The notes under the pieces were generated by a model. It saw only the letters and a program-made list of their open reading frames with translations. It was not told the origin of the DNA and did no database searches. From assembly GCF_014197055.1 (NCBI RefSeq), contig NZ_JACIEW010000003.1, positions 62,001-126,000 on the forward strand: a stretch of DNA of 64,000 nt, read 5' to 3'. This DNA is from Devosia subaequoris. Lineage in GTDB: Bacteria; Pseudomonadota; Alphaproteobacteria; Rhizobiales; Devosiaceae. Below are positions 40,810 to 62,170 of the stretch, one piece after another (position 1 is the first letter of the stretch; the number at the start of each line of letters is the position of its first letter). The translations under genes and the position numbers were made by a program.

Positions 40810-41313
40810 ATGACCGAACAGCACAGCGACACACTTTCTCCCCAGGAAGCCATCGATCGCATCTGGGAATTGGCGGACAAGATCGACATCTGCATGCTGA
40901 CCACTTGGGACGGCAAACAACAGCGCAGCCGCCCGATGGCCTCTCGCGTTCGCCGCGAAGAAAGCGCCATCTATTTCCTCACCGATATCGAGGGACACAA
41001 GCTCACAGAGATCGAAAAATTCCCCCACGTCTCGCTCGCCTGGGCGGACAATGGCGGCCACAAATATGTGGTGATCGCGGGTGAGGCTGAGGTCTCCAAC
41101 GACCGTGCCAAGATCGAGGAGCTTTGGACCAAGTTCGACAAGGCTTGGTGGGACGACGCCAAGGACCCGCAAATTCGCCTGCTCAAGGTCACGCCCGAAG
41201 ATGGCGAGGTCTGGGACAGTCCCAATATGGTGGTGACCGGTGCCAAGATGCTAGCTGCTGCCGCAACTGGTTCCAAGCCCGACCTGGGCGAGACCGGCAA
41301 GGCGAAGCTGTAG
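40810..41313 (+). CDS. Pyridoxamine 5'-phosphate oxidase-like general stress protein
   Basis: A 167-residue split-barrel flavin-binding protein of the general stress protein 26 type. KIDICMLTTWDGKQQRSRPM opens the fold and IYFLTDIEGHKLTEIEKFPHVSLAWAD follows, as in that family. It likely binds FMN or F420-type cofactors; true PdxH activity is not expected since the substrate-binding end is absent. It is a separate unit from aroG downstream. Confidence 0.85.
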   Translation: MTEQHSDTLSPQEAIDRIWELADKIDICMLTTWDGKQQRSRPMASRVRREESAIYFLTDIEGHKLTEIEKFPHVSLAWADNGGHKYVVIAGEAEVSNDRAKIEELWTKFDKAWWDDAKDPQIRLLKVTPEDGEVWDSPNMVVTGAKMLAAAATGSKPDLGETGKAKL

Positions 41314-41385
41314 CAGCCATCCCCATCCCTGGCTAGCAGGGCGGAACCAGAGGCAAGATCGTCGAGCCCCTACCAAAGTCGGGAC

Positions 41386-41414
41386 TCGACAAGCTTCCGA
41401 CTCGCCGCTACCTT
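41386..41414 (+). promoter_or_regulatory. Candidate promoter of the aroG leader
   Basis: TCGACA, 17 bases, TACCTT. The leader ATG begins eight bases after the -10, so the transcript could start at or next to the A of the start codon, giving a leaderless message as known for rhizobial trpL. A GTCGAG/CTCGAC inverted repeat (41361-41366, 41385-41390) overlaps the -35. Confidence 0.4.
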
Positions 41415-41421
41415 CCCGCCC

Positions 41422-41496
41422 ATGATCAACACCGCGACCTTCTTTTGGTATTTTAGCTATCCGCTCCCGGCGGAGGCTATTGCGCGCGTGATCTGA
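41422..41496 (+). CDS. Aromatic leader peptide of aroG
   Basis: A 24-codon frame, too short to be seen as a gene without context: MINTATFFWYFSYPLP and ten more residues. Six of seven consecutive codons (41440-41460) code for Phe, Phe, Trp, Tyr, Phe and Tyr. It lies 98 bases before aroG, the first step of aromatic amino-acid synthesis, and is followed by an antiterminator/terminator pair. A ribosome short of charged aromatic tRNA would stall here. No Shine-Dalgarno is visible, so it may be translated leaderlessly. Confidence 0.8.
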   Translation: MINTATFFWYFSYPLPAEAIARVI

Positions 41497-41532
41497 CCCC
41501 AGAAAAGACCACCAAATCGCAAGCCAGCCGCC
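41469..41532 (+). promoter_or_regulatory. Antiterminator pairing in the aroG leader
   Basis: GGCGG 41469-41473 pairs CCGCC 41528-41532 and GGCT 41475-41478 pairs AGCC 41522-41525. The second strand is the left arm of the terminator, so the two folds exclude each other. A ribosome stalled on the aromatic codons leaves 41469-41478 free; one that runs to the stop at 41494 covers it. Confidence 0.65.
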
Positions 41533-41554
41533 CGACTTCCGAGGCGGCTTTTTT
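41526..41554 (+). terminator. Attenuator terminator of aroG
   Basis: AGCCGCC/GGCGGCT stem with ten-base loop and a run of six T at 41549-41554, upstream of the aroG ribosome site. Confidence 0.85.
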
Positions 41555-41593
41555 ATTGGCCCCTCCGGATCATCTCCCAGAGGACCACATAAA

Positions 41594-42667
41594 ATGCTCA
41601 AATCCACTGACGACCTGCGCATCACCGAAATCAAGCCGCTGACCACGCCAATTGAGGTCATGCACCAACATCCGCGTACCGACGCCGCCACCCGCACCGT
41701 GATTGCCGCGCGCCACGCCTTCCACAACATCCTCTCAGGCAAAGACGATCGGCTGGCCGTTATTGTTGGTCCCTGCTCCATCCACGATCCTCAGGCCGCC
41801 ATAGAATACGCCAACCGTCTCGCGCCCCTGCGTGAAAAGCTCGGCGACCGGCTCGAAATCATCATGCGCGTCTATTTCGAGAAGCCCCGCACCACCGTGG
41901 GCTGGAAGGGTCTCATCAACGACCCCGAGCTTGATGGCAGCTTCAACATAGATCATGGCCTGCACACGGCGCGTGCCCTGCTGCTCGACATTGCTAATCT
42001 CGGCTTGCCGGCCGCTTGCGAATTTCTCGACATGACCACCCCGCAATATCTGGTCGATCTGGTCACCTGGGCCGCCATCGGCGCGCGCACCACCGAAAGC
42101 CAGATACACCGCGAGCTGGCCTCTGGTCTCTCTTGCCCGGTCGGTTTCAAGAACGGCACCGACGGCAATATCAAGATAGCGCTCGACGCCGTGCTTTCGG
42201 CTTCCCAGCCGCATCATTTCATGGCTGTCACCAAGGACGGACGCTCGGCCATTGCCGCTACCACCGGCAACCAGGATTGCCACATCATCCTGCGCGGCGG
42301 CAAAATCCCCAACTACGATGCCAACAGCGTCGATGCTACCGCCAGCGCAGCACAAAAGGTTGGCCTCAACCCGGCAATCATGATCGACGCCAGCCATGCC
42401 AATTCGTCCAAAAAACACGAGAACCAGCCTTCGGTCCTTGGCGATATCGGCACTCAGCTGGCCGCCGGCGAAAGCCGCATTATCGGCGTCATGGTTGAAT
42501 CCAACCTGGTCGCCGGCCGCCAGGACCTGGTTCCCGGCCAGCCCCTCAACTACGGCCAGTCCATCACCGATGGCTGCATCGACTGGGACACCACAGTCGC
42601 CGCCCTCGAAGCCCTCGCGGAAGCCGTCGAGAAGCGTCGGGCGGTGAGCAAGAAGGCCGTGGCGTAG
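41594..42667 (+). CDS. aroG: 3-deoxy-7-phosphoheptulonate synthase (class I)
   Basis: A 357-residue DAHP synthase that condenses phosphoenolpyruvate and erythrose 4-phosphate, the entry to aromatic biosynthesis. It is of the AroFGH type: IVGPCSIHDPQAAIEYA, TTVGWKGLINDPELDGSFNI, GFKNGTDGNI and MIDASHANSSKKHENQ carry metal and substrate residues. Expression is probably controlled by the aromatic leader peptide and attenuator just upstream, in addition to any feedback inhibition. GAGGACC precedes the ATG. Confidence 0.96.
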   Translation: MLKSTDDLRITEIKPLTTPIEVMHQHPRTDAATRTVIAARHAFHNILSGKDDRLAVIVGPCSIHDPQAAIEYANRLAPLREKLGDRLEIIMRVYFEKPRTTVGWKGLINDPELDGSFNIDHGLHTARALLLDIANLGLPAACEFLDMTTPQYLVDLVTWAAIGARTTESQIHRELASGLSCPVGFKNGTDGNIKIALDAVLSASQPHHFMAVTKDGRSAIAATTGNQDCHIILRGGKIPNYDANSVDATASAAQKVGLNPAIMIDASHANSSKKHENQPSVLGDIGTQLAAGESRIIGVMVESNLVAGRQDLVPGQPLNYGQSITDGCIDWDTTVAALEALAEAVEKRRAVSKKAVA

Positions 42668-42669
42668 CG

Positions 42670-42800
42670 CACCCCACCCGGCCTCCCCTGATAAGGGGAG
42701 GAGCCAGCCGTGGCAGCGCTTAGCCTCATTCCCGCCCTCCTCAACAGACTCGATCAATCCCTCCCCCTATCAGGGGGAGGTTCGGTGGGGGTATCCAATC
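42670..42800. repeat. Composite inverted dispersed repeat (copy B)
   Basis: Begins CACCCCACCCGGCCTCCCCT and ends GGTGGGGGTATCCAA, the latter 15 bases identical to the end of copy A (30126-30297). The middle differs. It lies between aroG and pgsA. Confidence 0.6.
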
Positions 42801-61846: not shown

Positions 61847-62170
61847 ATGCGGGACAGATATTATCGTCTGGAGGATGCGGAAGACCTGCCGCTTCAGGCT
61901 GTGCTGGTGCGTATCCGGCAGGATAACGGTGCCCTGCTTGCCTCTATCCTGACCGATGCTGAGGAAGTCGAAAGTGCGCCGGACCTGGTGCTTTTCCGCG
62001 CAGCCCTGTTGCGCCTGCAACAGGACCTTTCGGCCATCTTCATTCTATTGGACGACCCGGCGCACTGGCAGGCCGACTGGGGGGATCTGGTCGACTACCG
62101 TGTCACGCAAAAAAACGGGAAGCCGGCGCTGCGATTTGCGCAGCCACCGGCTTCCCCTCAATGCATTTGA
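61847..62170 (+). CDS. Hypothetical protein whose end overlaps the ychF terminator
   Basis: A 107-residue soluble protein with no recognised family (RYYRLEDAEDLPLQAVLVRI, then a helical middle and a basic end). GGAG lies before the ATG. The last 18 codons run through the palindrome that terminates ychF on the other strand, so the C terminus is either recently extended or unconstrained. Confidence 0.55.
   Translation: MRDRYYRLEDAEDLPLQAVLVRIRQDNGALLASILTDAEEVESAPDLVLFRAALLRLQQDLSAIFILLDDPAHWQADWGDLVDYRVTQKNGKPALRFAQPPASPQCI
62109..62156 (-). terminator. Terminator of ychF inside the converging gene
   Basis: On the minus strand GGGAAGCCGG/CCGGCTTCCC with an inner GCTGCG/CGCAGC pairing and then GTTTTTTT. 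It lies within the coding end of the 61847 gene. Confidence 0.85.

Follow-up and report, generated by a model that had tools for sequence, protein, structure and literature searches.

An aromatic leader peptide and a probable ribosome-mediated attenuator upstream of the accessory DAHP synthase gene aroG in Devosia and other Proteobacteria

What governs the transcription of aroG in Devosia subaequoris, where a short reading frame rich in codons for aromatic amino acids, followed by a terminator, lies 5' of the gene? The window considered here, the whole 64-kb stretch of DNA that was analyzed, spans positions 62001 to 126000 of contig C3 in the 3.8-Mb genome of this organism. In its sequence the preceding gene ends at 41313 and is followed, in order, by the leader ORF, the terminator, and aroG. 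A preliminary description of the region had singled out a 24-codon aromatic leader, a terminator, a competing strand at 41469-41478, a missing Shine-Dalgarno sequence, and a -10 box seven bases before the ATG, and all of these are borne out by the sequence. Taking the findings below together, we propose that the arrangement is, very probably, a ribosome-mediated transcription attenuator of aroG, which encodes an accessory type I DAHP synthase. Its parts are the following:

41385-41390, + strand: putative -35 hexamer CTCGAC (conserved form CTCGACAA / GTGACAA), whose spacing to the leader ATG is constant in aligned related loci
41409-41414, + strand: putative -10 hexamer TACCTT, with its 3' end 7 nt before the leader ATG
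41422-41496, + strand: leader ORF, MINTATFFWYFSYPLPAEAIARVI and stop, 24 codons, probably leaderless, kept in all genus and order loci
41440-41460, + strand: control codons F7 F8 W9 Y10 F11 S12 Y13, from the sequence and the stall simulation
41454-41465, + strand: strand 1 (TAGCTATCCGCT), partner of strand 2 when there is no stalled translation, from RNAfold of the terminated transcript
41469-41479, + strand: strand 2 (GGCGGAGGCTA), common to the 1:2 and 2:3 helices, with its core sequence GGCGG-A-GGCT at 41469-41478 near-invariant in alpha-, beta-, and gammaproteobacterial loci
41522-41532, + strand: strand 3 (AGCCAGCCGCC), partner of strand 2 (antiterminator) or of strand 4 (terminator)
41526-41554, + strand: intrinsic terminator AGCCGCC-cgacttccga-GGCGGCT-TTTTT, with arms at 41526-41532 and 41543-41549 (the latter being strand 4), a 10-nt loop, and a T5 tract; compensatory changes in 13 cells
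41557-41569, + strand: strand 5 (TGGCCCCTCCGGA), which in read-through RNA pairs with the loop and 3' arm of the terminator, from a pairing-energy permutation test
41580-41584, + strand: aroG Shine-Dalgarno sequence GAGGA
41594-42667, + strand: aroG, type I DAHP synthase, 357 aa (TIGR00034, 526 bits, cut-off 173)

A generic promoter and terminator scanner made no call at the leader region of the window, because the -35 and -10 hexamers, separated by 18 nt, match their consensus poorly and the terminator has a 10-nt loop; as far as the sequences go, the case is one of conservation rather than of consensus score. Between aroG and the next gene (42685-42776) there is also an imperfect inverted repeat, with arms of 17 nt (CCCCTGATAAGGGGAGG and CCTCCCCCTATCAGGGG) that are 94% complementary and spaced 58 nt apart.

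The leader is widely conserved. When it was defined as a reading frame with four or more aromatic residues within eight, accompanied by a terminator, it was found in 153 of 175 aroG upstream regions and in none of 568 control regions taken from those loci. The aromatic run and terminator, on whose presence in close relatives the preliminary description had staked its reading, recur in all 57 other loci of the genus and in all 25 order-wide loci, most of which come from other families. That description had looked to Hyphomicrobiales for further aroG leaders; they are indeed present in the loci read across the order, and their range extends far beyond it. Among named alpha-, beta-, and gammaproteobacterial genomes, leaders precede aroG in Bradyrhizobium, Mesorhizobium, Methylosinus, Rhizobium tropici, Phenylobacterium, Caulobacter radicis, and Leisingera, as they do in Xanthomonas, Stenotrophomonas, Dyella, Rhodanobacter, Bordetella, Burkholderia, and Massilia. 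None was found before aroG in the Pantoea, Erwinia, Photobacterium, Enterovibrio, Chitinimonas, and Chitinilyticum loci examined. The leader tracks AroG phylogeny: mapped on the AroG tree, its presence requires 3 changes as against 10.7 for shuffled labels, and in the branch uniting alphaproteobacteria and xanthomonads it occurs in 74 of 74 rows. A covariance model of the element (R1), searched against 289 genomes of the class, gave strong matches (>60 bits) that all lie 5' of a type I aroG; in one genome (G538) the leader and aroG sit on two contig ends. Weaker matches in the class, at about 27-34 bits, mostly covered the terminator half only, and three that were inspected had no comparable leader. 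Two side observations concern single loci: a metagenome-assembled genome labeled Anaerolineae (L138), whose bin assignment may be wrong, has an aromatic leader-like ORF (MSRYFSFFSWYGYFAAG...) 5' of aroG, and in the class-level search output the aroG genes of two loci of one genus (L173 and L174, g151) each contain one in-frame stop (TAG and TGA, respectively).

The gene served by the leader is one of two kinds of DAHP synthase gene in these bacteria. A full-length type I aroG is encoded in 39 of 297 genomes of the order (43 rows at E<=0.001, including 4 weak ones), and a type II DAHP synthase was found in 59 of 61 genomes; D. subaequoris has one gene of each type. Since an aromatic leader precedes none of the 30 type II genes examined, the attenuator belongs to the accessory isozyme. 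The near-universal occurrence of type II and the optional occurrence of the attenuated type I in the examined Hyphomicrobiales suggest that the latter is an emergency isozyme, switched on by way of tRNA charging.

In its architecture the region combines a short reading frame, placed 5' of a biosynthetic gene and full of codons for the amino acids that the pathway yields, with an intrinsic terminator between leader and aroG and an antiterminator strand, within or beside the leader, whose pairing excludes the terminator. The terminator covaries, with 13 cells changed on both sides and none of 500 shuffles scoring as high. The alternative helix joins GGCGG (41469-73) to CCGCC (41528-32) and GGCT (41475-78) to AGCC (41522-25); across loci strands 2 and 3 pair in 88% of cells, as against 19-61% when one is slid along the other. 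Covariation lends this antiterminator weak support beyond one flanking position, because its GGCGG:CCGCC core is nearly invariant; at that flanking position 48 of 71 are paired where 38.6 would be expected, a value reached in none of 2,000 shuffles. One core pair is changed on both sides in the alignment in R. tropici (L107), for which a free duplex search did not rank the 2:3 helix above shuffles. Eight loci have no GGCGG strand 2, and several of these remain complementary to strand 3 once the register is shifted; in two of the eight (L160 and L087) this complementarity is not clearly above shuffles.

The two halves of the leader are kept in different ways. Among 27 Devosia leaders of one type, the codons before TTT-AGC-TAT show synonymous changes (TTC/TTT and TAT/TAC), and codon 8 may be Phe or Tyr, next to a fixed Trp9. 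No nucleotide differs between the TTT of Phe11 and the end of strand 2, and strand 1 is invariant with its third positions included. Further, the RNA of strand 2 is retained despite a change of frame at that point in three loci (L053, L057, and L126), in two of which (L053 and L057) the shifted frame reads PLRRRLTRA and PHRRRLARA over an unchanged RNA strand. Because the codons vary as codons and the changes of frame spare strand 2, the first half is maintained as codons and the second as RNA.

These parts suggest how the element might work. Transcription would begin at the leader ATG or within a base or two of it, so that ribosomes would load on a leaderless end. With charged tRNA-Phe, tRNA-Tyr, and tRNA-Trp in ample supply, the ribosome would pass the aromatic codons and cross strand 2, leaving strands 3 and 4 to form the terminator, at which RNA polymerase would stop near 41554. 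With a cognate charged tRNA scarce, the ribosome would instead wait at codons 7-11 and mask strand 1; strand 2 would then capture strand 3, no terminator would form, and aroG would be transcribed, its expression thereby responding to aromatic amino acid limitation. Following read-through, strand 5 would pair with strand 4. In a simulation of stalling, in which the transcript up to strand 4 was folded repeatedly, the bases under a ribosome footprint being masked at one codon after another (equilibrium folding and the footprint being assumptions), the predicted probability of the 2:3 helix in the window is 0.90 at Phe7, 0.87 at Phe8, 0.85 at Trp9, 0.95 at Tyr10, 0.95 at Phe11, and 0.93 at Ser12, falling to 0.02 at Tyr13; in the ribosome-free RNA it is 0.16. 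The earlier proposal that stalling at the aromatic codons forms the antiterminator thus stands in the model for F7 to F11 and for S12, and fails for Tyr13, the last Tyr codon, which is predicted to lie past the decision point. In most of 15 loci tested the probability likewise falls steeply close to where the aromatic run ends, one locus (L048) giving a probability of zero throughout. In Devosia it is strand 1 that leaves termination as the predicted default. The Bradyrhizobium, Bordetella, Xanthomonas, and Burkholderia examples already favor the 2:3 helix without a ribosome, so default states may differ between clades; the ribosome-free leaders of L061, L072, L081, L101, L105, and L111 favor the antiterminator in the model, where Devosia favors termination.

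Just 3' of the U-tract lies strand 5, so placed that its helix with strand 4 is possible only in read-through RNA. This helix covaries: in 92 nonredundant alphaproteobacterial pairs, with kinship ignored, the true pairing energy averages -18.8 kcal/mol as against -15.6 for permuted partners, with none of 2,000 permutations as low. The z score is -2.8 in Devosia and -4.1 in other Hyphomicrobiales; the pairing is weaker in other alphaproteobacteria and xanthomonads and absent in betaproteobacteria. One possible role is translational control through masking of the aroG Shine-Dalgarno sequence, for which folding predictions are mixed across clades: that sequence is better exposed in the 2:3 state in 27 of 58 Devosia and 14 of 34 other Hyphomicrobiales loci, and the relation is reversed in other alphaproteobacteria and in betaproteobacteria. 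A wider conjecture, to which we would give about one chance in three, is that of a proteobacterial attenuator family in which one leaderless leader integrates Phe, Tyr, and Trp, and to which Alphaproteobacteria have added strand 5 as a second switch, locking the RNA open after read-through and perhaps determining how well aroG is translated or how stable its mRNA is.

Read alone, one genome could give the same picture if a plain terminator merely happened to follow a chance ORF; the comparative data refute this to near certainty, both through the contrast of 153 of 175 aroG upstream regions with none of the 568 controls and through the spacing and order of parts, which are kept across three proteobacterial classes. 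It is also very improbable, if a little less so, that the RNA structure alone is regulatory, as a metabolite riboswitch or a protein-bound leader, and the frame incidental. The strong conservation of the RNA from codon 11 to strand 2 and the survival of strand 2 through changes of frame would suit such an RNA; it would leave unexplained, however, an aromatic run preserved at the codon level, with synonymous changes, and a mean Devosia leader content of 2.4 Phe, 2.2 Tyr, and 1.0 Trp. Moreover, at the gathering threshold no Rfam family, riboswitches included, lies over the leader, whether in the window or in 20 related loci. One weak Rfam match, to ncS025, is to an unrelated Burkholderia sRNA.

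Two further alternatives accept attenuation and differ on how the leader is started and what it senses. In one, the leader lies on a conventional transcript with a 5' untranslated region that starts further upstream. The weak consensus matches of the window hexamers are compatible with this, as are Burkholderia and Oxalobacteraceae, where by eye the -10-like box lies well upstream of the ATG, pointing to a short untranslated region, and where a Shine-Dalgarno sequence is likewise lacking. Against it, in 77 of the 82 alphaproteobacterial loci whose upstream sequence was long enough, the -10 box of the best-scoring -35/-10 pair ends 6-7 nt 5' of the leader ATG, where shuffled sequence does so in 7.7%, and a Shine-Dalgarno-like 4-mer precedes the leader in just 4 of the 82, as against 68 for aroG; in Xanthomonas and Bordetella the placement of the -10 box looks similar by eye. 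We consider the conventional transcript unlikely. Given the fixed distance from -10 box to ATG and the lack of a Shine-Dalgarno sequence, seen also 5' of 41422 in the window, the leader is probably leaderless, with its start site at or next to 41422, and the leaderless reading put forward at the outset gains from this. In the other alternative, limitation of Phe and Tyr alone is sensed in practice and the lone Trp codon counts for little. In other alphaproteobacteria 40% of the leaders have no Trp, as do 45% of those of betaproteobacteria or unplaced lineages, and the Corynebacterium glutamicum AroR peptide (Phe-Tyr-Phe) is reported to respond to limitation of Phe and not of Tyr despite having codons for both (PMC11802643). 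On the other side, a Trp9 stall is predicted by the simulation to antiterminate, and Trp persists in 61 of 61 Devosia leaders and 37 of 38 from other Hyphomicrobiales while adjacent Phe and Tyr swap. Sensing of Phe and Tyr alone has a real chance of being right, if somewhat less than an even one. Joint sensing of Phe, Tyr, and Trp, as originally envisaged, is plausible for Hyphomicrobiales because codons for all three are kept there, in every Devosia leader and in 97% of the other loci of the order.

The attenuator proposed here would give rhizobia, Devosia, relatives of Caulobacter, xanthomonads, and Burkholderia a concrete and testable point of control over entry into the shikimate pathway; it would extend leaderless attenuator ORFs beyond trpL, and the family is absent from Rfam. 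Ribosome-mediated attenuation is itself already known, including that of a DAHP synthase gene in C. glutamicum; what is new is the breadth of the family, a probable leaderless start in a leader other than trpL, and a conserved strand beyond the terminator that pairs with its loop and 3' arm. We found no paper on a proteobacterial aroG leader in the open-access literature searched.

Several known systems provide parallels. In E. coli, aroF, aroG, and aroH are under TyrR and TrpR, so that the same enzymatic step is controlled there by DNA-binding repressors. The pheL leader of E. coli (Phe_leader, RF01859), with its Phe codons and alternative terminator and antiterminator, resembles the present element in those alternative structures and differs in controlling pheA; its model scores 15.8 bits with the window, below the cut-off of 55, and the gene here is aroG. 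The rnTrpL RNA of Sinorhizobium meliloti, which we take to be the same RNA as RcsR1 of Rfam (RF02552), belongs to a model that gives 18.8 bits with the window, below its 60-bit cut-off. A search with that model for trpL in the D. subaequoris genome yielded nothing over the cut-off, the best match lying beside ATP synthase genes. The S. meliloti trpL is a leaderless attenuator ORF at the transcription start (PMC7298713, PMC10117765); the aroG leader, to judge from its promoter geometry, probably starts in this way as well, and its terminated transcript could likewise persist as a small RNA, whereas the rhizobial leader has Trp codons and controls trpE(G). For Shewanella, an aroF attenuator sensing Tyr-tRNA has been predicted, with reference to older E. 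coli literature (PMC2659441). The nearest precedent is the C. glutamicum aroR leader 5' of aroF, for which ribosome-mediated attenuation was reported (Neshat et al. 2014, as described in PMC11802643; PMC4046766): it is an aromatic leader peptide attenuating a DAHP synthase gene and resembles the present element in layout, differing in that it belongs to an actinobacterium and has a shorter aromatic run.
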